From assembly GCF_025698545.1 (NCBI RefSeq), contig NC_068569.1, positions 2,666,001-2,730,000 on the forward strand: a stretch of 64,000 bases of DNA. Reading direction: 5' to 3'. Under the pieces are notes generated by a model. That model was not told the origin of the DNA. It was given only the letters and a program-made list of their open reading frames with translations, and did no database searches. The stretch's first letter is position 1. Each line of letters opens with the position of its first letter. The DNA is from Gossypium raimondii. Lineage: Eukaryota > Streptophyta > Magnoliopsida > Malvales > Malvaceae. The position numbers and the translations under genes are program-made. Below are positions 1 to 49,156 of this stretch, piece by piece.

Positions 1-827
1 AATAAATTATATTATTTGATAATATTTTAATTTTTATTTAAAAATTCAATAAAATATACATATAATGATATTTAAACGTGAATTAATTAAACATTTAATT
101 TACCATTCAAATAAAATTTTATTTTAATATTTTTATCTATTTTAATTTTAATTATGTATATTTTATTATTTTCATCAATTTGATGTTTCTTTTAATATTA
201 TATTAATTTGTTAATTTCTTTTTAATATTAGCAAAATCTATGATGATTTAGTCCCCATCCCCACTTGAAAACGTGCATACCAGCAGACAAGGCCTGACAT
301 AAAAAAGGAAAATTCTAATTTTGTTATTTAAAGGAAAAAGAGAAACAAGTGGATTGAAAATAAATAGGAAATTCAACACGCATTTTGCAGCCATTATTAT
401 CACACCTCTATAGTTACAAAATAGAAAAAATATATATATTCAAAGAATTTCGTCAAACTGTAAATGAAGGCCCCACTTTTAGGTTGTAAATAGGATACCA
501 TCTCCAATCCAATAATATTGGGCTTGAATTTTAGTTGGAGTCCAGTGTAATGTGATAAGTCCTAAATATAGTTTCACTTTACACGTCGGTTTTAAATTTT
601 GTACACTCGAAATCATTATAAACTTAATTTTATACCCATTTTATATATTAGAAGTGCATTTCTTTTATAGATAAGATATGCGATTAAATCTGAATTCTCT
701 ACTCGTAAAATAAAAACTTTCCATCATCAAATAATTACTCTTATATATTATATTTATAATTTTGTATGCTATTTATTTTATTATGTAACACAATATTATA
801 TTCTCGCCACAAGTGGCGTAAGTTAGA

Positions 828-7645: not shown

Positions 7646-8857
7646 TCCTTGCTTATTGTTCTTGGAAGTAACTGCAGCTGAATGGTGAATAAATTGTTTC
7701 CACAGTTTCTAGTAGATTCAAGTGAGGGCCCTGAGGAAGGGCAATGAGATGCTCAGGGCAGAGATAAGATAACCCTTGCTAGGTCTGCCTGGGTCCACGA
7801 AAAATGCTTATCAACTAAACTTCCAAATTTACAGTTTTGATATTTTACATTTTCCTAAGGATCTTGCATTGTCATGAAAAAAAGTTTGAGAGACAACTTT
7901 TTTACCCAACGTAATATAGATATGCCTTGTAAGACAGGGAATTAGCAAGCTCCACATATTTTTTTTCCCATGGAGATAAATCACTTGCAGAGTCTCTTCT
8001 TATTAGCTGTTAAAAAATGTCTTCTATCGCCCTAACTTACTCCCTTCTAACGTGCTGTGTAGCCAATGGACCACTTTTTGATATCACTTTCATACTCTTC
8101 TTGACAATGATCTCGGTTTTCCATGTTTAATTAAGCCCCTTAATAACGGGTTATGCTGTTTGTATTATTGTCAATGTATATAGAAAACTTTGAACTGATG
8201 TTTGTAAAGATGTGATTGCATTGAAAAATAGATCATATCACCTTCAAAGTCTCCCTTAAATTATGCAGAATTAGTAGTGTTACAATCAGTCTATCATCTC
8301 TGATACCAACTGTTTGATGGATTCACCTACTGAACGTTTCATTTAAGGAAGAGAAGCCTTTGCTTTCATCGAAACATTTATGATACGCATGCACTCAATG
8401 AAAATTCCTGTTTCCTTAATGCTAGCAGAAAGTCCAAGGTTGCATATATCAGGGATTTAAGTAGACATTTACCACAATTAACTATGATGGCATCTAAATC
8501 CTGGAATATATATCAAAAGCTGATGCTAGATTATAAGTCATTTTTCTGAATGTGTAGAGACATGGCCATGGCTGAAACCTGATTCTCCTTGTAAAATGAT
8601 AAACAGTAAAAACATATGTGACATGAGAAATGAAAATTACCTGAAACAATTGGATGCAAAAGATATTTTTTTCCAATCCAAAAGAGTATTCTTGTTGTTT
8701 TCTGAGAAAAATTTTCCTCTAATTCACATGCATCACTGCTTCAAAATCTGTCGTTTCTCACATAGGGAATCAGTCTCATCATCATCACATGAAAGTATGC
8801 ATGGACATACCTTCAAGGACCAATTGCAATGGCTCAAAATATCCATGCTTTTTGTTC

Positions 8858-8865
8858 TATATAAA
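8858..8865 (+). promoter_or_regulatory. TATA box of germin-like gene A
   Basis: TATATAAA lies 56 bases upstream of the chosen ATG and is conserved in unit B. The 5' leader must be very short, which argues against the longer upstream reading frame. Confidence 0.7.
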
Positions 8866-8920
8866 GGGTGAGCTCAGCTTGCAACATTATTTTCACCCCT
8901 CAAAAACCAGTGCCATAAAC

Positions 8921-9538
8921 ATGTTTATCCCAATCTTTTTCATTTTATCTTTCCTATTTTCCTCCACCAACGCAGCCGACTTCTGTGTTGGGGACTTGAA
9001 TGGCCCTGTAGGCCCTGCAGGCTATTCTTGCAAGAAGACAGTCACCGTAAATGACTTCGTTTACTCCGGCCTCGCTGCCACAGGCAACACTTCGAACCTC
9101 ATAAAAGCTGCAGTAACACCAGCCTTTTCGGCTCAATTCCCGGGTGTTAACGGACTCGGCATTTCAATAGCTCGTTTGGATTTAGCTGTTGGTGGAGTGA
9201 TACCTATGCATACACACCCTGGGGCTTCTGAAGTCCTTGTTGTTATTCAAGGCACAATTTGTGCTGGTTTCATATCCTCAGCTAACAAAGTTTACTTCAA
9301 ATCTCTGAATAAAGGAGACATTATGGTATTCCCACAAGGTTTATTACATTTCCAAATCAATGCAGGCAAAACTCAATCCTTGGCATTTGTATCCTTCAGC
9401 AGTCCAGACCCTGGTCTCCAAATCCTCGACTTTGCCTTGTTTGCAAGTGACTTGCCGACTGACATTATTGAAGAAACCACTTTTCTGGATGCTGCTCAGA
9501 TTAAGAAGCTGAAGGGTGTTCTTGGAGGAACTGGTTAA
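8921..9538 (+). CDS. Germin-like protein, ABP19/ABP20 type, copy A
   Basis: Single-exon gene of 205 residues for a secreted cupin. Residues 1-18 form a hydrophobic signal peptide (ending SSTNA), followed by the mature start ADFC and the conserved Cys22/Cys37 pair. Cupin box 1 ([14 protein letters not shown]) supplies metal ligands His97, His99 and Glu104; box 2 ([16 protein letters not shown]) supplies His143. The C-terminus [14 protein letters not shown] is typical of peach auxin-binding proteins ABP19/ABP20, which are germin-like proteins of the cell wall. The reading frame is open further upstream (to 8789), but those codons span the TATA box, so the ATG at 8921 is chosen. A tandem sister lies at 12572-13189. 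Germin-like proteins often have superoxide dismutase activity; the activity here is not known. Confidence 0.93.
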
Positions 9539-9712
9539 TATTATTTGAACTTGTTGAGAGTCCCTTTTTTTTTTCTTTTTTTTTGGTATGCTTTCACGTT
9601 TGCTTGTGTCTTCTTGTCAGTGGTAGTTTGTTTGAAATTACTAGCAAAAGAGTGAGTCTCTGTTGTGTTTCTTTGTGTTCCTTCTTCAGGTTCTATTGTG
9701 AACCAAAAATGT

Positions 9713-9718
9713 AATAAA
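9713..9718 (+). terminator. Poly(A) signal of germin-like gene A
   Basis: AATAAA lies 175 bases after the stop codon and is conserved at the matching place in unit B (13353-13358). Confidence 0.55.
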
Positions 9719-11096
9719 AAAGACCATCCCTTTCTCGATCTGAAAAGGTTTAAATAAATGCAATTATGTTGTTTATCTTTCTCCCTTAAAATGGGAAATA
9801 GCCAACTTCATTAATCTCCAAAGATGATGGTGAGTAGCTGCAATTGTTTGGTGGGGAATACTGCACTGACAGAATTTTTGGGATGACCATATACCCCCCT
9901 TCTCCATTAAGAAAGAATATTTTAGTCCAACCCGGATTTAAGATATTTAAAAATATTTAGATAAAATTATGTAATCTTTTACAAGAGAATATATATTTTG
10001 GTTGGGAGTTGGTCACTATTAAAATTGATTACTTTCGTAAACCTTATCAAGTAGTAGTACAATATATGGTCCAAATTCTTTTGAAATTTATACTGCACTA
10101 GTATTATGATCAGCAATCACTGAATCAGATATGTTTTGGAGTGTATGGCAAAACTCCCCTTGATGCTAAACAAGTGAAAAGAGGGTTTAATATTAGGATC
10201 AATTCCACCGTACATCATTGGATTTAGATTGTAAATTGGTCAAAATTTTTAAAATACTATCAATATCATATTAATTAAAAGTTAGTTAAATATGAGCTCA
10301 ATTCAACATATTTTTATAAAAAAAAGGTCCAATTACAGATACATATGTATTTATTATATAAACAACTTTACACCCATTGTGTTAAGAGGGAAGAGACTGT
10401 CTTCCTAAATTTTAATGGCATTGTTGCTTTTTTGGCTCATCATATTCAAAACATTCTTATATATATACTTTTTAATTTATATTATAAAAGTTATTTACAT
10501 CGTATCTGGATTGATATTATTGATATTATTTAAATCCAAATATGATAACCTTCCAAACGATAAATCTGGAATCCAATAATCACCAGTAACAGAAATATTC
10601 ATACCGCTGCCCACCTTCCAGCCTACTCCCTCCGATACCACACCCTTAGTGGCCCAAATACTTTTCCAAGTATACGAAACATTATTCCCCAACTGTGAAT
10701 TTAATATTAATAACTTAACAATTAATAAAATATTAATATTTTGAGAATTTAATTGACATATTTTAAAATTTAGTAACTAATTCCAAATTTGAGCAACAAT
10801 TTAGGGTTTCTAACTCCATTTTTTTAAAAAAGCCCGATTTCTGCTGCTCGGTAGAAGAAAGTATTTTAGTTAATAGTATTTTACAATAAAGCATTCTCAC
10901 CGTTGTCTCAAAGCAAACAAAGAGACGAAAAGAGTAGTACATCAGTAATTACTTCTAAATGGCATGTCCATGGTATACCTACCACTTCAAACCACAAGCA
11001 TTAGATCAAAGCAGAACACAAGTGATCATCTCAATGACTAAAACTACAAGCCTTTTGGCCAGTTCTGTAATTCTAAAAGCGAAACTGTGGTTAATT
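9719..11096. other. Non-coding flank inside duplication unit A
   Basis: The region aligns with 13359-14465 of unit B with many small gaps. Apart from the LINE fragment it shows no gene. The 3' end of the OXS3-like remnant begins at its right end. Confidence 0.6.
10535..10692 (-). mobile_element. LINE reverse-transcriptase fragment
   Basis: On the minus strand this encodes a short segment with the words SYTWKSIWATKG, GVGWKVGSG and DYWIPDLS. These match the stretch after the reverse transcriptase domain (zf-RVT region) of plant non-LTR retrotransposons. Only this piece is present. It lies in duplication unit A and has no counterpart at the matching place in unit B, so it probably arrived after the duplication, unless B lost it. 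Confidence 0.7.
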
Positions 11097-11973
11097 TCAA
11101 CGCAGTTTGTTGCCTTCATTACCACTGTGAACAGCCAAACCGGCCATGTTAGCAACAAACTGTAGATCAGACAAGGAATAAGACCGGCAAGGAAGGTTTG
11201 GTCGAGCAGTTAATGATGATGATGATGATGGGAGTTGATTTTTTACACTGTGGATGCAGAGGTGGAAGGCAGTTAGACGGCGGTGATGCCATTGATATTT
11301 TAGTTCCAATGTTTCCCAAAGGATTATTGGGTTTCTGGTCCAATGAAGAACTGCGAGCTAGTAAGTTCTTGCGTTTCCTAATGTAGGGATATTCAGGCCT
11401 AGCAAAATCTTTAACAGAGGAAACAGCAGCCGCATCGGCTAAACTTGTAAAGGACTTTGATTTGCCACCATAAAACTTGGATATGCCTTTTCTGTAATCA
11501 AACAAAACCCGCAAAGAAAAACAAATTGAAGAACCCATAAGAAAAACTATGCAATATCTTATTAAAAGACACCATTTTCTTGTTCTTCAAGCAATGGTTA
11601 GTAGGAGTAACTAGTATCAAACCCACATTTCACTATTTTTTTTTGAATTATAATAATAGGATAAAGCCCAAACAACAAACACCAATAACCATCAAGCCAT
11701 CACATGGGGTTCACATTTCACTACTTTAATACGCTTTAAATAATACATGTCCTTACATTAAAAGTTAAACCACTTCATCTTTTTGGAAGAAATTGCCAAA
11801 CAAAACCCTCGCTATTTTTTTAGATTTACTCGCAAATTTCAACGAAGAATCGAGTTTAAATCAAAACACGTAAAGAGAAAACAAGCCAAATATTTTAATT
11901 TTTATATTTTGAATGTTAAAAATGGTTTACCTCAGAGCATCCATTGTATCCAAAGGTCCTTTGTACTTCAGGT
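11097..11973 (-). pseudogene. Truncated OXS3-like gene copy (unit A)
   Basis: This copy of the OXS3-like gene at 14466-15557 keeps exon 2 (words KGISKFYGGKSKSFTSL and RKRKNLLARSSS), the intron and about 40 bases of exon 1, then ends at the duplication break. It has no start region or promoter of its own. Within exon 2 the frame changes at the run of ATG/ATC triplets near 11210-11232, where the length differs from the intact copy, so the C-terminal part (SYSLSDLQFVA) lies in another frame. It is therefore a non-functional by-product of the tandem duplication. Confidence 0.85.
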
Positions 11974-12003
11974 GCTATCTAAAGATATTGGACAATTAAC
12001 ATG

Positions 12004-12205
12004 ATTGTCAACTGTTTCCATAAATTCAAATAATTAGGAGAAATCAACATTGAAATAAGTAGTTATAATTATTGACAACTGTTTCCATAAATTCAATTCA
12101 GTAATAGTTATATTAAATGGACAATTAAGGTTGAAATAAATAGTTATATTTATTGTCAACTGTTTCCGTAACTTCAATTCATTAGGAGAAAACAATTAAT
12201 AAATT
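12004..12205. repeat. Three diverged tandem units at the duplication junction
   Basis: The word TGTCAACTGTTTCC (or TGACAACTG...) recurs near 12006, 12073 and 12154, each followed by TAAATTCAA/AACTTCAA and AGTTATA-type words. The period is about 67 to 81 bases. The array lies between the end of unit A (11973) and the start of unit B (about 12325) and has no counterpart in either. Confidence 0.75.
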
Positions 12206-12508
12206 ATATTATATTAAAATTAGATTTACTTTAGAGAAGTATAAATGTAAAAATACAATATAAAAAATGTTTTAGAATTAAAATACTATATTAAGTTTAA
12301 AAAATGATATTTATTTGTAAAATTAATGAAATTTACCAGGACGCAAAAGATGTTTTCTTCCAACCCAAAAGAGTATTCTTGTTGTTTTCTGAGAAAAATT
12401 CCCCCCTAATTCACATTATAGGGAATCAGTCTCATCATCATCACGTGAAAGTATGCATGGACATACCTTCAAGGTTTAAATGGCTCAAAAGATCCATGCT
12501 TTTCGCTC

Positions 12509-12516
12509 TATATAAA
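12509..12516 (+). promoter_or_regulatory. TATA box of germin-like gene B
   Basis: TATATAAA lies 56 bases upstream of the ATG, at the same place as in copy A. The upstream flank of B lacks a stretch of about 30 bases present in A near 8728-8760 and differs in the segment just before the TATA box. Confidence 0.7.
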
Positions 12517-12571
12517 GGGTGACCTCAGCTTGCAACATTATTTTCACCCCTCAAAAACCAGTGCCATAAAC

Positions 12572-13189
12572 ATGTTTCTCCCAATCTTTTTCATTTTCTC
12601 TTTCCTATTTTCCTCCACCAACGCAGCCGACTTCTGTGTTGGGGACTTGAATGGCCCTGTAGGCCCTGCAGGCTATTCTTGCAAGAAGACAGCCACCGAA
12701 GATGACTTCTCTTTCTCCGGCCTCCGTACCGCAGGCAACACTACGAACCTCGTAAAAGCTGCAATAACACCAGCCTTTTCGACTCAATTCCCGGGTGTTA
12801 ACGGACTCGGCATTTCAATAGCTCGTTTGGATTTAGCTGTTGGTGGAGTGATACCTATGCATACACACCCTAGGGCTTCTGAACTCATTCTTGTTATGGA
12901 TGGCACACTTTTTGCTGGTTTCATATCCTCAGATAACAAAGTTTACTCCAAATCTCTGAATGAAGGAGACATTATGATTTTCCCACAAGGTTTATTACAT
13001 TTCCAAATCAATACAGGCAAAACTCAATCCGTGGCATTTGTATCCTTCAACAGTGCAGACCCTGGTGTCCAAATCCTCGACTTTGCCTTGTTTACAAATG
13101 ACTTGCCGACTGACATTATTGAAGGAACCACTTTTCTGGATGCTGCTCAGATTAAGAAGCTGAAGGGTGTTCTTGTAGGAACTGGTTAA
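12572..13189 (+). CDS. Germin-like protein, ABP19/ABP20 type, copy B
   Basis: Single-exon gene of 205 residues, the same length as copy A and without gaps against it. It keeps the signal peptide, Cys22/Cys37, the metal ligands His97, His99, Glu104 and His143, and the C-terminal KKLKGVL. It differs from copy A at 35 residues (for example A52R, G101R, Q110D, C114F, A121D, K131E), spread over the mature protein but sparing all metal ligands. All 35 changed codons are replacements and no codon is changed silently. Product and location should be as for copy A, a secreted cupin of the cell wall, but binding or partner specificity may differ. Confidence 0.93.
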
Positions 13190-13352
13190 TATTATTTGAA
13201 CTTGTTGAGAGTCCCTTTTTTTTTCGTATGCTTTCACGTTTGCTTGTGTCTTCTTGTCAGTGGTAGTTTGTTGGAAATTACTAGCAAAAGAGTGAGCCTC
13301 TGTTGTGTTTCTTTGTGTTCCTTCTTCAGGTTCTACTGTGAACCAAAAATGT

Positions 13353-13358
13353 AATAAA
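13353..13358 (+). terminator. Poly(A) signal of germin-like gene B
   Basis: AATAAA downstream of the stop, matching the position in copy A. Confidence 0.5.
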
Positions 13359-14465
13359 AAAGACCATCGCTTTCTCGATCTGAAAAGGTTTAAATAAAGG
13401 CAATTATGTTGTTTATCTTTCTCCCTTAAAATGGGAAATAGCCAACTTCATTAATGTCCAAAGATGATGGTGAGTAGCTGCAATTGTTTGGTGGGGAATA
13501 CCGCACTGGCAGAATTTTTGGGATGACCATATACCCCTTCCCCATCCATTAAGAAAGGATATTTTATTCGAACCCGGATATAAAATATTTAAGTATATTT
13601 AGATAAAATTACGCAATCTTTTACAAAATAATATATATATATATATTGGTTAAAAGTTGGTCACCATTAAAATCGACTACTTTCATGAACCTTATCAAAT
13701 AGTACTATATAATCCATAGTCCAAATTCTTTTGAAAAATTATACTGCACTGTTGAAGCCAATATCTGGACAAATATTTGTACTAAATGTAGACATAATGT
13801 TGGTATAAACTAAAAATTTTGATATGTTTGAGTGAATACTAAACAAGTGAAAAGAGGATTTAAGCTTTAGGTTAATTGATTAGAAAATTTAAAATATATC
13901 AATCAAAATTGGGTAAGTATTAAATGTAAATTCAATTTAACATACTTTTATAAAAAATATTCAATAACAAATACATATGTATTTATTATATAAACAACTT
14001 TGCACCTAGCTTTCTTAATTTAATTTATATATTTTAAAAATTATATACATCATATCTAAATTGACATTTAACGAATAACTTGGCGACTAAATTAATAAAA
14101 TATTAATATTTTGAGAACTTAAATTAAAACATTTTAAAGCTTAGGAACTAATTTCAAATTTGAGCAATAATTTAGGGTTTGAACTCCATTAAAAAGACAA
14201 GCCCAATTTTTGCTGCAAGGTAAAAGAAAGTATTTTAGTTAATAGTATTTTACAATAAAGCATTCTCACCATTGTCTCAAAGCAAACAAAGAGACGAGAA
14301 GAGTAGTACATCAGTAATTACTTCTAAATGGCATGTCCATGGTATACCTACCACTTCAAACCACAAGCATTAGATCAAAGCAGAACACAAGTGATCATCT
14401 CAATGACTAAAACTACAAGCCTTTTGGCCAGTTCTGTAATTCTAAAAGCGAAACTGTAGTTAATT
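13359..14465. other. Non-coding flank inside duplication unit B
   Basis: Aligns with the flank in unit A with many small gaps; it has no LINE fragment. No gene is seen. Confidence 0.6.
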
Positions 14466-15557
14466 TCAACGCAGTTTGTTGCCTTTATTACCACTGTGAA
14501 CAGCCAAACCAGCCATGTTAGGAGTTGTAGCAGCAACAAACTGTAGATCAGACAAGGAATAAGACCGGCAAGGAGGGTTTGGTCGAGCAGTAAATGATGA
14601 TGATGATGGTTTGATGATGGTAGTTGATTTTTTACACTGTGGATGCAGAGGTGGAAGGCAGTTAGACGGCGATGATGCCATTGATATTTTAGTTCCAATG
14701 TTTCCCAAAAGATTATTGGGTTTCTTGTCCAATGAAGAACTGCGAGCTAATAAGTTCTTGCGTTTCCTATTGTAGGGATCTTCAGGCTTGGCAAAATCTT
14801 TAACAGAGGAAACAGCAGCCGCATCGGCTAAACTTGTAAAGGACTTTGATTTGCCATTATAAAACTTGGATATGCCTTTTCTGTAATCAAACAAAACCCG
14901 CAAAGAAAAACAGATTGAAGAACCCATAAGAATAACTATGCAAGATCTTATTAAAAGACACCATTTTCTTGTTCTTCAAGCAATGGTTAGTAGGAGTAAC
15001 TAGTATCAAACCCACATTTCACTGCTTTAATACGCTTTAAATGATTCATGGCCTTTCATTAAAAGTTAAAGCCACTTTATCCTTTTTGAAGAAATTGTCA
15101 AACAAAACCCTAGCTATTCCTCTAGATTTACTTGCAAATTTCAACGAAGAATCGAGTTTAAATCAAAACCCATAAAGAAAAAACAAGCCAATTTTTTTTT
15201 TTTTTTTTTTAGAATGTTAAAAGTGGCTTACCTCAAAGGCAAAATCTCCTGTAGAGCATCCATTGTATCCAAAGGTCCTTTAAGCTGGCTTTGTACTTCA
15301 GGTTCCGGTGAGTCATCATCATCCGATGGTGATTCACCGGAATCATCGCTGTTCCTTCCTATCGACGACGAGCTGCAAGACCCCGACTCATCATCGTCTC
15401 TCTCTTCCTCCTCTTCCTCCGTCGAAAGCAACCGCAACCTATCATCTCTTTTCTCCTCCGGCGAATCATAGACGGAGATACACTGCATCCCGTGGATAAA
15501 CCCCGAGCGTCTCATTGAACTACTATTTTCATTATTCCTATCATAGACAAGCGACAT
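14466..15557 (-). CDS. OXIDATIVE STRESS 3-like protein
   Basis: Two exons, 15557-15232 and 14880-14466, give 246 residues with a clean GTAAG donor and CAG acceptor. Exon 1 is highly acidic and serine-rich (runs of Glu, Asp and Ser around residues 45-80) and ends in the word GPLDTMDALQEILPLR. Exon 2 opens with KGISKFYNGKSKSFTSLADA, the signature of the plant OXS3/OXS3-like family, followed by a basic RKRKNLL patch that could be a nuclear signal. In Arabidopsis OXS3 relatives are nuclear-speckle chromatin-associated proteins linked to heavy-metal and oxidative stress tolerance. This gene's own role is inferred from family only. The truncated duplicate is at 11097-11973. Confidence 0.85.
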
Positions 15558-42835: not shown

Positions 42836-43073
42836 TAATTATTTCAAAAAGCTTATGTTGATAATTTATGGGAAAATATTCTATTATTCTATTATTATAT
42901 TTAAGGTTCATCACGAAACTCAAAAAATTAATTAAAAAATATTAAAGGCCTATTTGGACAACAGAAAGTAATTGAACGAAAATACAATTATTAGGGTAGT
43001 AATTTCACCTCTTCTAATTAGAAAAAATTGTAATTCCCTAGATGCCTTTGGTTGATAAAGTATATGTGATGTT

Positions 43074-43515
43074 TGTTAGAGTTGTGTGACCCAAATCCTA
43101 AGAGATTGCTTGTAAGTTAAATTAAACAAAAATATATTTTCTTTCTAGAAGATTTAGCATTTATTAGTATAATATATTTAGCATTTATTAGTATAGTTTA
43201 TTTGACTTACTAATTTAGCCTATAAATAGGCTCTTTTACAATCTTAGAAAAAAACACCCATTAGATTAGAACTCATAACACATTCAGAGAATTTTGTGTT
43301 TACGTTTTGAGGGTTCTTTATTTTTCGAGTTTCTGGGGTTTAGTTTTATCTCCATCTTTTGTACTTCATTCTTTTGCCATTATAGTAAAATTATCTTTGC
43401 CCGTGGTTTTTTATCCTCTTTGGAGGGGTTTTTCCACGTTAAATTTGTGTGTTCATCTTCTCAATTTCTTCTGTTATTTTTACTTGTCTGTTGCTTAATC
43501 GGGACGATCCTAACA
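43074..43515 (+). repeat. Left LTR of the Copia element
   Basis: Starts TGTTAGAGTTGTG and ends CGATCCTAACA. It contains a CTATAAATAGG TATA box. Confidence 0.9.
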
Positions 43516-44377
43516 AGTGGTATCAAAGCTAGTTCAATTTTCATAGATCAGCCCGTTCAGAGATGGCAGCAACAAGGTTTGAAATTGAGAAGTTCGATGG
43601 TGAGACAAATTTCAATCTATGGTAAATTCGGATGATGGCAATTTTAGTTCAAAATGGCTTGAAAAAGGTTGTTACAGGGAAAAAGCCTGAAAATCTAAAT
43701 CAAACAGAATGGGAAGAGCTTGATGAAAAGGCCTTGTCTGCAATCCAATTGTGCCTCGCGAATATAGTATTGCAGAAGGTATTGATGGAGAAGACCTCAT
43801 CCGCCTTGTGGAAAAGGTTAGAAACTCTTTATGCGACTAAGTCTCTGGCTAACCGTTTAGTGTTGAAACGTCTATTTACGTTTCGCATGAACGAAGGTGA
43901 GCTTCTTAGAGATCACATCAGTCAATTCATTACTCTTTTAAATGATTTAAAGAACGTTGAGGTTCATATTTACGATGAAGATCAAGCTATGCTATTATTA
44001 TGCCCTTTACCCTCTTCATACAAGTCTTTCAAGGAGACCCTGATTTATGGCAGAGACAAACTCTCGTTCGAAGATGTGAAGGGTCGTTTGTTGAGTAGAG
44101 ACAAACTCGACAATGAGTTTGGTTTGAATAGCAAAGCAGATAGACAATTTTCCGTTTTGGTAGCATCAAAGAAACGAGACAAAAGGTGTCGCTATTGTAA
44201 AAAGTTAGGTCACGTCAAAGCAGATTGTTATAAACTGTGAAATAAAAGAGCTGCTGAGAGTAACGAGGAAGATGTAGCTGGTGCTAATTTGGTCAATGAA
44301 GGTGGTGATGATTTCTTGTTAGTGTCAACGAGCGATAACTCCAAGCTTACGTTTGAGTGGATCCTAGATTCAGAATG

Positions 44378-47300
44378 TGTAGCACCCCTTACCCGAGACC
44401 GTTTCCGGAGTCGAGTACGAGGCATTACTTAGCTTATCTTACTAATTCGAAGCATAAAAACTTGTTTTGAAAATTAATCTCACTATTTACAGCAATCTGT
44501 CTAATCGCGCAGCAGTTACTAAATTAATTATAAATCGAGTTACGGGACTCAAAATTTAATTCCGAAAATTTTCCCTGAAACTAGACTCATATATCTTCCT
44601 ACTATAAAATTTTCAGAATTTTTGGTTCAGCCAATTAGTACAGTTTATTAGTTAAAGTCTCCCCTATTTCACCACTTGACTGTCCTGACCTCTTGCCACT
44701 AAAAATAAATTTTCTCATTATAGGATTTTCATATGAAGTTATTACTCGTTTCTACAGAAAATAGACTCAATAAGGAATCTATAGATATAAACTAAAACTC
44801 ATAACCATTTTTGTGCAATTTATAATTATTTTCTAAACTTAGAACAGAGGACTCCAAAAACAGTTCTGACCCTGTCTCACTAAAGTTCTCATATCTCAAA
44901 ATATAAAATTTCTTTTGTTAAACCGTTATTTTTCCATGAAAATAGACTCAACAAGCTTTAATTCCATATATCATTCACCCTCTAATTAATTTTATACTAT
45001 CCTAGGTGATTTTTCAAAGTCACATTACTGTAGCTGCTTGAAATCTGTTTATTTGCAAACTTTTACTCTTTCATGATTTCCATGCATGATTTATCATCTA
45101 AATATACATATTACCAAACATTATCACATACTCACACATCTTCCTTTAGCAATATCATAGATAAAAACATTCAAAATGACTAATCCCTATACATCACTTA
45201 GGTATAAACATTACTTAGGTACATGCCACGTTATCAAAAGAAAGGTACATCGCTAAATTTCTCTGAGGTCGGGATTACTCTGGATGCTGGACCGAACACT
45301 GGATTTCTACTAACCTGCGCACGGAAACAACCGTACGCTGAGCATGGGAATACTCAGTGGTATTACCATAATTAAAATTAATAACTTTAATCGATAATTT
45401 ATATACATTTAATTTATGTCTACAATTATTCGTTAATTGCCTCATACTTTAAATCAACTTGATCATTAATAACAATAAGCAATATTTCAATCTTATATTT
45501 AATTGTATTCATACCTTGTTTCACTATCTAAATTTTATTGGATTTTCAACATCTCATTCTAATAACTCATTCCAATCCATACAAACTCAATCATTTCATC
45601 AACTCATTCATTATCATTTCTATTTATATTCAATTTTACACTTATAATCTTTTAACACTCAATTTACACATTAAATCCATAAATAAAATTCAATAACTTG
45701 TATTCAATTAAATTCACATATTATTTCACTATTTCAAATCATTTTATTTTCACTTGTCATTTTACATCATTTCATATTACCAAAAACTATTTCATAAAAT
45801 TTATCATTATTTGTTTCTTGAACCATAATTCTCACATTCCATTTTCACATCTCAATTCAATGTCTTATTTCAAATCAATTTACTTCAATTCAAATTGCTT
45901 TTAATTTCCAATCCATATACCTTCAAATATTCACATAATTCATAATTCAATATCATTTCTTACTTCAATTCTTTTATTTTCCCCCTATTAACATGACTCG
46001 GACTTTGGCGGATACATGGATCCAACCAAACACACCAGTGCGGCACCCAGTGCCTCATCGGATAGTTCGAAGCAATAGTTGACACCCAGTGTCTCATCGG
46101 CAAAGCTGAAGTAAGTTGGTACCCAGTACCTCATCGAATCTATCCGAAGTAACAGTATGACACCCAGTGTCTCATCGACTCAAGGTCGAAGTATCCCTGA
46201 ACACTTCCAATCCTATGGCATGCCAACTATATCCGACTCAGCCCGACTAGTTAATAGGGTATTCAAATCATTTTTCTATTTCAAACTCACTTTCGATTCA
46301 ATTTACAATTCAATTCAAATTCACCTTCCACTTTCAAATCAATACACAATTCAATACCAATACATATTTCAGATATTCACATATAATCATACATCGATTC
46401 AATTCAAACCACTTTTCAATCAATACAGAATTCACATATTCACATAATTTCAAATCTCATATCTCGATTTCCAAGTCACATATCAATTCACAATTCACAT
46501 ATTCACACATAATCATAATTTAATTCACTTTCATTCAATTCATATTTTAGTTCATTTTCCAACCAAATTCAAATCACTAATTATTTTTCATTCAATATAC
46601 ATTTCAATATCACATTAATTCTTTAAATTCAAATCATATCACTAGTAATTTCCATTCAATTCACATACAATTCAATATCATTTAATTCAATATCGATATT
46701 CACCTTATTTTTATTTACTAAACATATTATTCAAAATTCAACAATAATTACTATTAATAGATTCAATACTAATACGTATTTTTCATTTAATTCAATCATG
46801 ATTCTTACCTCAATTTGCTCATCATGTATATTAATTTAAAATTTAACAATTAATAATTAAATTCGAATTATGGTAATACTAACCGAAATTTCTCTCGAGT
46901 CAATCCTTGTCCACCTTCTCCTTTCCTTTCTCGGACAATGACTCGTACACGACATTAGCTACGTAATTAAACAATTAAAAATCATTAATACTCAATTTCA
47001 TCAAAATATTTCCATTTATACCTAAACTTTACCTAAATTCTAATTTAATCCCTTATCAATACTAATTTTATTTTCCCAATCTAACTCTATTCTCTCTTAA
47101 TTCTTACCATAAACTCAATTTAGCTATTCAATTTCACCATAAATCCCTAATTTCGGGATTCTTTCAATTTAGTCCCTACTATTCAAAACTTACACTTTAT
47201 TTTACAATTAAATCCTTTACTAACTTCTAACTTGAAATTCAATCAATTTAACCCCTAATTCATCAATTAATTCAACATGAACAACATCTAAAAATTTACT

Positions 47301-48044
47301 AACTTCCAAAATTTCAACTTAAATCAAGTAGTATTTTGTTCTAGGATTCCAAAAATATCAAAATCATAAGAAAAAGGGACTAAATTGACTTACCAATTAA
47401 ATTTAGAAATTTTGAACCCCTGAACCGTCGCTCTCTTTCTTTTTCTTCTTTCTCTCTTCTCTGTTTCGTTCTGCTCTCTGTTTCTTTCTTTCTCATTTCT
47501 ATTCTTTCTTTTGTTATATATATATATAATATAATATAATATATTAATAATAATATAATATAAAAACATAATCATTACTTACGTTTATATAATATAATAT
47601 ATATTTTAAATTAAAAAAATATCTTAAGATTTTTAAGGTTAAACCGCCTCAACTTTAGAAAAAGGCATAATTGCCTATTTAGTCCTTTTAACTTTTCTTT
47701 AGTCTATTATTCAACTTTCATATCTATTGCAATTTAATCCTTTTAATCAATTAACTATCGGAACATTAAAATTTCTTAACGAAACTTTAATACTACCCTA
47801 ATGACACTTCGTAAATATTTATAAAAATATTTACGGCTCAGTTTATAATATCCAGGTCTCGATACCTCGTTTTGACCCAATTTACCTAATACTTTCTTTT
47901 AAATCACAAAATTCACTCATTCAAAAATATTTCTAAAATCACGCTGAACTTATAATTATTAATTAATAAATTTTTCTAACATTTTCATCAGATTTAGTGA
48001 TCTCAAATCACTATTCTGACACTACTGAAAATTGGGCTGTTACA
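44378..48044 (+). mobile_element. Large solo LTR, gypsy-type (fossil), inside the Copia element
   Basis: A 3.67-kb block starts TGTAGCACCCCTTACC and ends GGGCTGTTACA. It interrupts the protease-like region of the Copia element, with GAATG on the left and AAATG on the right as a near-perfect 5-bp target duplication. It has no coding domains. It shares the GCGCACGGAAAC..CCGTACGCTGAG word and the last 100 or so bases with the solo LTR at 33743-35961. It must be younger than the Copia insertion that hosts it. Confidence 0.8.
46040..46180. repeat. Minisatellite of about 39 bp in the large solo LTR
   Basis: Four units built on ACCCAGTGTCTCATCG at about 46044, 46083, 46120 and 46161. Confidence 0.8.
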
Positions 48045-48707
48045 AAATGTTCTTTCCACATGTGTCCCAATAGAGAATAGTTCTCCACATATAGTTCAGT
48101 TGAAGGTGGAGTTGTGAACATGGGAAACGATTCATCTAGTAAAATAATCGGTATTGGTACTGTTAAAATTAGGATACACGATGGGACGATTAGGACACTC
48201 TCAGATGTCAGGTATGTACCTGATTTACGAAAGAATCTCATCTCATTGAGTATTTTAGACTTGAAAGGATGTAGAATCAACATCGAGTCGAACGACATTA
48301 AAGTATCTCGTGGAGCTCTCGTTTTGTTAAAAGGTAAAAGAACTAGCAGTCTTTATATTCTGGAAGGTTCTACAGTGACCAGTGAAATCGGACGTCTCTC
48401 GTCCGTTACAGAGTCAAAGTCAACTCGTTTGGAGCGGAGGCAACTTGGTCATAGGAGGGAAAAAGGTATGACCGTTTCGTTGAAGAGAGGTTCTCTTTTG
48501 GATGTATGTTTTGAAAAGTTAAGGCACTGTATTCGTGAAAATCAGACCCGGGTTAGTATTGATTTGGCAGTGCATAAGTCGAAGGCTAGAAGTCTTCCAG
48601 CTTCTAAGCATAGATTCGACTCAGTTAATTCCCTGCATAGTTCAAGATAGGCCCGTGGCGGGTTTTGACAAAGATTACGTTGAAAGAATTCGTGTCAAGG
48701 TGGAGTT

Positions 48708-49151
48708 TGTTAGAGTTGTGTGACCCAAATTCTAAGAGATTGCTTGCAAGTCAAGTTAAACAAAAATATATTTTCTTTCTAGAAGATTTAGTATTTATTA
48801 GTATAATATATTTAGCATTTATTAGTATAGTTTATTTGACTTACTAATTTAGCCTATAAATAGGCTCTTTTACAATCTTAGAAAAAAACACCCATTAGAT
48901 TAGAACTCATAACACATTCAGAGAATTTTGTGTTTACGTTTTGAGGGTTCTTTATTTTTCGGGTTTTCGGGGTTTAGTTTTATCTCCATCTTTTGTACTC
49001 TTCATTCTTTTGCCATTATAGTAAATTTATCTTTGCCTGTGGTTTTTTATCCTCTTTGGAGGGGTTTTTCCACGTTAAATTTGTGTGTTCATCTTCTCAA
49101 TTTCTTCTGCTATTTTTACTTATTTGTTGCTTAATCGGGACGGTCCTAACA
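48708..49151 (+). repeat. Right LTR of the Copia element
   Basis: Same ends as the left LTR (TGTTAGAG...CCTAACA), about 97 percent identical by eye. Confidence 0.9.
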
Positions 49152-49156
49152 ATGTT

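Follow-up and report, generated by a model that had tools for sequence, protein, structure and literature searches.

In a 64,000-nucleotide stretch of Gossypium raimondii DNA (contig NC_068569.1, positions 2,666,001 to 2,730,000 of the forward strand; hereafter the window, with its first letter as position 1), two tandem germin-like genes, A and B, differ by 38 replacement steps and a single silent step. Replacements exceed the neutral expectation, most of the polarised changes lie on the branch of B, and both frames are intact. We regard adaptive divergence of the pair after duplication, mainly of copy B, as the probable explanation. Both genes have a single exon, their starts lie 3.65 kb apart, and a Cupin_1 domain places both in the germin-like family.

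8921 to 9538, plus strand: intronless germin-like gene A of 205 codons, by primers and residues the counterpart of cotton GhABP19 (Cupin_1, E = 9.5e-39)
12572 to 13189, plus strand: intronless germin-like gene B of 205 codons, the fast-evolving copy (Cupin_1, E = 1.8e-40)

Replacement and silent changes

The two frames (618 bases each) align without gaps. Their 39 base differences fall in 35 codons, none of which (0/35) encodes the same amino acid in both copies. A preliminary description of the sequence had given the same counts. Its statement that there is no silent change holds for whole codons and fails for single steps: codon 136 reads GTA in A, ATT in B and GTT in both outgroups, which hides one silent step on A and makes the ratio 38:1. 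By the Nei-Gojobori method, the 38 replacement steps fall on 466.5 sites and the silent step on 148.5. The outgroups, two paralogues from the same genome, C7 (locus L003, 73% identical to B) and C9 (L004, 64%), polarise 37 of the 39 bases, with 26 derived on B and 11 on A; the other two lie in codons 54 and 114. From the inferred ancestor, the neutral silent share is 0.248 to 0.297 (kappa 1 to 4), in agreement with the quarter assumed earlier for random change. Over the same kappa range, the probability of at most one silent change among 39 is 2.0e-4 to 1.9e-5. For B alone, with the two unpolarised bases included, 0 of 28 changes are silent (P = 3.4e-4 to 5.1e-5), and for A alone 1 of 11 (P = 0.20 to 0.12). 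When the truncated copy of a neighbouring gene (see below) is compared with 14466-14927, excluding 7 gapped codons, 4 codons differ silently and 11 by replacement. This is a neutral share, so the counting method is unbiased.

We fitted a purpose-written codon likelihood model to the tree ((A,B),C7,C9). The ratio of replacement to silent rates (dN/dS, or omega) is 13.9 on the A and B branches versus 0.12 elsewhere, and omega = 1 on the A and B branches together is rejected (twice the log-likelihood difference, 15.9; p = 6.6e-5). This result is robust to equal codon frequencies (p = 4.4e-5), to the removal of the first 21 alignment columns (p = 8.5e-5) and to the removal of C9 (p = 4.2e-5). On the B branch alone omega = 1 is likewise rejected (p = 3.7e-4), and the estimate reaches its upper limit, 148; the omegas of the A and B branches are not significantly different (p = 0.38). 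The codon dN/dS check with an outgroup that had been proposed for this pair thus speaks against neutrality, with outgroups that are paralogues of the same genome and not orthologues.

None of the close germin pairs examined in this genome resembles A and B. A search of 750.8 Mb in 281 contigs gave 71 germin matches, and 22 loci (L005 to L008 and L011 to L028) were searched for a control set. It retained 24 stretches from 18 loci once those with fewer than 130 aligned residues, stop-bearing stretches and exact copies had been dropped. From these, pairs less than 15% divergent and with at least 80 silent sites were compared. The ratio exceeds 1 in 0 of the 34 close pairs (less than 15% different), which share members, and its maximum is 0.71. 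Germin-like matches cluster at C11 (about 13.58 to 14.0 Mb) and C13 (about 50.16 to 50.30 Mb), where the close copies examined have purifying ratios.

Noncoding DNA close to the genes differs at 9 of 336 aligned sites on the 3′ side and at 3 of 76 on the 5′ side (2.7 to 3.9%). The 3′ count, which is close to the earlier estimate of about 8 in 340, does not include an 11-base gap in a T-rich run. Replacement sites (38/466, 8.1%) have changed more than silent sites and close flanks combined (13/561; Fisher p = 1.9e-5), than the 3′ flank alone (p = 0.0012) and than silent sites alone (p = 3.4e-4).

If selection on RNA or on an overlapping code held the silent sites in place, dS would be depressed and the ratio inflated. 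Silent sites have indeed changed less (1/148.5) than the close flanks (12/412), though not significantly so (Fisher p = 0.20). However, the other branches show free evolution at silent sites (neutral lengths 0.69 for C7 and 1.66 for C9, omega 0.12). In addition, the 3′ flank of A shares no more than a single 31-base match with the C7 region and so has not long been conserved. We consider this explanation very improbable.

Conserved and changed features of the two proteins

The four metal ligands, H97, H99, E104 and H143 (three histidines and one glutamate, in boxes B and C), are identical in A and B, as had been stated from the sequence. C22 and C37 are kept in both copies, whose N-terminus appears hydrophobic by eye; a third cysteine of A, C114, is F in B. 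The replacement S58T retains an N-T-S/T glycosylation sequon, as read from the sequence. In B, K131 is changed to E, with loss of the KGD tripeptide, and G101 is changed to R beside the ligands. In the paralogue C7 (L003, 1501-2124), the residue corresponding to the third ligand histidine (H143 of A and B) is a tyrosine, at position 146, and judging from this residue its metal site may be altered.

The replaced codons cluster weakly: 7 lie in codons 105 to 114 (scan P = 0.02) and 11 in the 25-codon window 41 to 65 (P = 0.03), and the best 15-codon window reaches P = 0.06. The densest stretch is located as follows.

9221 to 9262, plus strand: codons 101 to 114 of A, forming strands at metal ligand E104, from the codon clustering scan
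12872 to 12913, plus strand: codons 101 to 114 of B, from the same scan

Of the 25 scored sites on B, 13 carry a derived residue that other germins of the genome also have there, against a random mean of 5.1 (P = 0.0003). This test assigned the two unpolarised bases to B and left out residues before 35. Given this match to other germins, B looks filtered rather than decaying. Variability at the sites changed on B somewhat exceeds the average (P = 0.023). The residues derived on A occur in other germins at 5 of 7 sites (P = 0.004), with a BLOSUM P of 0.004, and both copies look filtered by the fold. The structural model of B has moderate confidence (mean predicted local distance difference test score [pLDDT] 79.3, below 50 at residues 1-19 and 203-205). 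Replaced sites after residue 18 are spread about evenly over its structure classes (coil 17/96, strand 11/61, helix 5/30).

The nearest solved relative is barley germin, an oxalate oxidase (PDB accession numbers 1fi2, 2et7 and 2ete), with the same single-cupin fold and the same metal ligands (phmmer E = 9.9e-41; Foldseek E = 1.1e-21 with the B model). The phmmer alignment to 1fi2 places two of its asparagines at A84 and I94, where A and B have none. Presumably these asparagines bind oxalate in the barley enzyme, and because they are replaced, oxalate oxidase activity of A and B is unlikely as judged from sequence.

Selection, conversion and relaxed constraint

Several observations weigh against adaptive divergence or restrict its scope. 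The clustering of replaced codons is weak (P = 0.02 to 0.06), and the mean BLOSUM score of the changes on B is marginally above random (P = 0.053). The A branch taken alone is indistinguishable from omega = 1 (estimate 3, p = 0.27). Positive selection after duplication, which the preliminary description had seen in the pair as a whole, is still the best reading, but its signal is carried by B. The pair was chosen by eye from a 64-kb window, and a p value of about 1e-4 is not genome-wide proof; the case for B comes from the sequences of one genome. Moreover, Ka/Ks above 1 is found in 3.3% of Arabidopsis tandem pairs, according to the available part of that study (PMC6383267).

A further reservation concerns the age of the duplication. 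The two genes belong to a larger tandem repeat, whose two units align in three pieces and contain the following features.

8652 to 11962: tandem unit A, with promoter, germin-like gene A and a truncated copy of the downstream gene (self-BLAST and alignment with 12339-15281)
12339 to 15281: tandem unit B (self-BLAST and alignment with unit A)
8858 to 8868, plus strand: TATA-like box of A, TATATAAAGGG (3 matches in the window versus 0.04 expected)
12509 to 12519, plus strand: TATA-like box of B (same motif search of the window)
9539 to 9898, plus strand: low-divergence 3′ flank of A (best changepoint about 9898, with 9/348 differences before and 30/183 after)
11167 to 11538, minus strand: truncated copy of the downstream gene in unit A, used as neutral yardstick (compared with 14466-14927)
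14466 to 15557, minus strand: downstream gene of unit B, apparently complete (open frames 14466-14927 and 15228-15557, with collinear matches in the C7 region)

We take the downstream gene to be OXS3-like; a Pfam search with it and its truncated copy gave no match. Outside the window's two repeat units, positions 43071-49152 hold a gag-like frame (43632-44240) between a pair of direct repeats, each about 448 bases long and 96.4% identical to the other. This element looks like a young long terminal repeat retrotransposon, which we assume to be Copia-like.

Between the units, the distal 3′ flank (30/195), the intergenic DNA (22/119) and the intron of the neighbouring gene (25/223) differ by 11 to 18%, and the promoter differs at 12 of 149 sites. 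Exon 2 of the neighbouring gene with its 3′ side differs at only 25 of 783 (3.2%), so that low divergence marks both genic stretches, the germin-like one and the neighbouring gene, and the rise 3′ of A is sharp. The earlier claim that the coding part has changed faster than neutral DNA therefore stands against the close flanks and silent sites and fails against the distal flank, the intergenic DNA and the intron, which exceed the 8.1% of the replacement sites. With those three as the clock, the replacement sites would not be fast, and the lack of silent changes would have to be explained in some other way. Because the close flanks have diverged so much less than the distal regions, the duplication is probably older than the coding similarity implies, with its genic part reset by conversion or slowly diverging. 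Under either history, the coding part is properly timed by its silent sites, which lie scattered among the replaced ones. One further locus (C10; L033, 1501-2116) carries a relic of the upstream region of B, 83% identical over about 600 alignment columns and joined to a 36-base piece matching 15328-15363; a tblastn search with four germins printed no germin coding match in this 3.2-kb locus. The relic fits an old duplication.

Gene conversion between tandem copies is common. Ongoing conversion between old paralogues could erase silent differences while selection retains replacements, so that a high dN/dS would arise from an erased dS. The frequency of such conversion and the rise in divergence just beyond the close 3′ flank, to 11 to 18% further out, are in its favor. 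We modeled conversion with retention, assuming one clock and independent geometric tracts. With mean tracts of 5 to 300 bases, this simple model predicts 6.8 to 21.9 silent differences, whereas one is observed (P = 0.009 to 7e-9). Since the replaced sites are too closely spaced, tracts that avoid them cannot clear the silent sites between them. As the cause of the 38:1 ratio, ongoing conversion is in our view unlikely.

Constraint might alternatively have been relaxed on a redundant copy B (omega about 1), with the silent changes absent by chance and the pair picked by eye. A plant genome has many tandem pairs, from which the most striking one was selected, and the changes on B are weakly clustered and weakly conservative. 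However, the codon models reject omega = 1; the frame, ligands, cysteines and TATA-like box of B are intact; and its replacements are enriched for residues of other germins. We think that relaxation, too, is improbable, and we retain adaptive divergence, mainly of B.

Relationship to GhABP19 and GhGLP2

The nearest named system for copy A is GhABP19 of Gossypium hirsutum (MH430583; germin-like protein subfamily 3; PMC6517559), which we compared through its published primers and the residues reported for it. Cloning primers were reduced to the part that matches the gene, with added sites trimmed by eye, and the primers were searched for in regions 8700-9600 and 12400-13250. Five of the six primers match A without mismatches, and three of these five mismatch B: the expression primers (2 and 1 mismatches in B) and the silencing forward primer (4 in B). 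The silencing reverse and quantitative PCR forward primers match both copies exactly, and the quantitative PCR reverse primer fits neither (4 and 5 mismatches). The silencing forward primer, an exact match to A, spans the A-derived states N44 and Y48, which are therefore present in G. hirsutum and are not errors.

This recurrence also bears on a sequencing or assembly artefact, which a single assembly as the source of the data would allow. Random errors would be silent in about a quarter of cases and could create stops, and bases specific to A are found again in cotton primers that were published independently, a check that covers A and not B. On the silent share and the primer match we rejected an artefact, which we hold to be extremely improbable.

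In the available text of the GhABP19 report, and with an offset of 40, all nine reported serines, all six threonines inside the frame, both cysteines and the four ligands fit A. Of the 15 serine and threonine positions inside the frame, A fits 15 and B 13 (serines 7/9). The same text gives the HPGASE box B and the KGD motif, which A shares; B has HPRASE and EGD. Judged by primers and residues, copy A is the counterpart of GhABP19. Read from the published start, A has 245 residues compared with the 244 reported, and the reported S18 is a leucine in A. The passages available on GhABP19 do not mention a tandem twin. The published frame begins with an ATG at 8801, upstream of the TATA-like box of A (window 8801-8920), and if A is read from 8921, its N-terminus is hydrophobic and signal-like. 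The statement that GhABP19 has no signal peptide (PMC6517559, as available) may stem from the chosen start, although its cDNA is reported to extend upstream as far as that start.

According to the same part of that report, recombinant GhABP19 has superoxide dismutase (SOD) activity and inhibits fungal growth, its silencing in cotton lowers resistance to Verticillium dahliae and Fusarium oxysporum, and its overexpression in Arabidopsis raises resistance to both. The SOD label is thus a reported activity for GhABP19 and a putative one, by analogy, for B. An excerpt of another source lists GhABP19/20 among genes reported mainly in fiber cells (PMC10012527), so a growth role is also possible and defense is not the sole candidate.

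A second cotton protein, GhGLP2 (G. hirsutum; PMC7385154), is described in the available text as SOD active and wilt related, with ligands His101, His103, Glu108 and His147. Because these are the exact positions found in the paralogue C9 (L004, 1501-2130), C9 is probably the GhGLP2 counterpart. We rejected GhGLP2 as the identity of B, given that the ligands of A and B lie at 97, 99, 104 and 143.

Proposed history and meaning

We hypothesize that tandem duplication copied a gene encoding a secreted germin-like protein of the SOD type and GhABP19 kind, together with part of its neighbor. Later, probably through gene conversion, the coding regions and close flanks would have become almost identical again, or else they would simply have diverged slowly. 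Directional selection would then have fixed amino acid changes, about two-thirds of them in B, which presumably is secreted as well. These changes cluster weakly in an N-terminal segment (codons 41-65) and in the strands next to the active site (105-114). The frame, the metal ligands, C22, C37 and the glycosylation sequon were retained. The changes may alter the tuning of the metal site or contacts with subunits or ligands in a defense role. New partners or pathogens, which the preliminary description had named as the target, are suggested by analogy with the published defense role of the cotton counterpart of A. A more speculative and rather doubtful version is that B is a neofunctionalized GhABP19, in which an arms race (for example, with fungal inhibitors of apoplastic SOD) remodeled the active-site strands and the N-terminal segment, and that the two copies assemble into mixed hexamers or divide a range of substrates or ligands between them.

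Selection after duplication is already known as a process, of which the A/B case is an extreme. The plant tandem duplicates with Ka/Ks above 1 in the accessible part of PMC6383267 share with it the tandem arrangement, low silent divergence and a defense-type function. Unlike those pairs, with ratios slightly above 1, A and B reach 38:1, and their changes are polarised by outgroups. In a table of peanut germin-like genes, the rows shown with a ratio look purifying (PMC9901545). A literature search for duplicates that differ by replacements alone gave 0 matches, and no search was aimed at copy B itself.

The 38:1 pair is a concrete case of adaptive divergence, at the strength argued above, in a family whose close pairs usually look purifying, and it provides 35 candidate residues with two weak clusters. 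It also offers a natural comparison between A and B, in which the counterpart of the other member, GhABP19, has a published role in wilt resistance.

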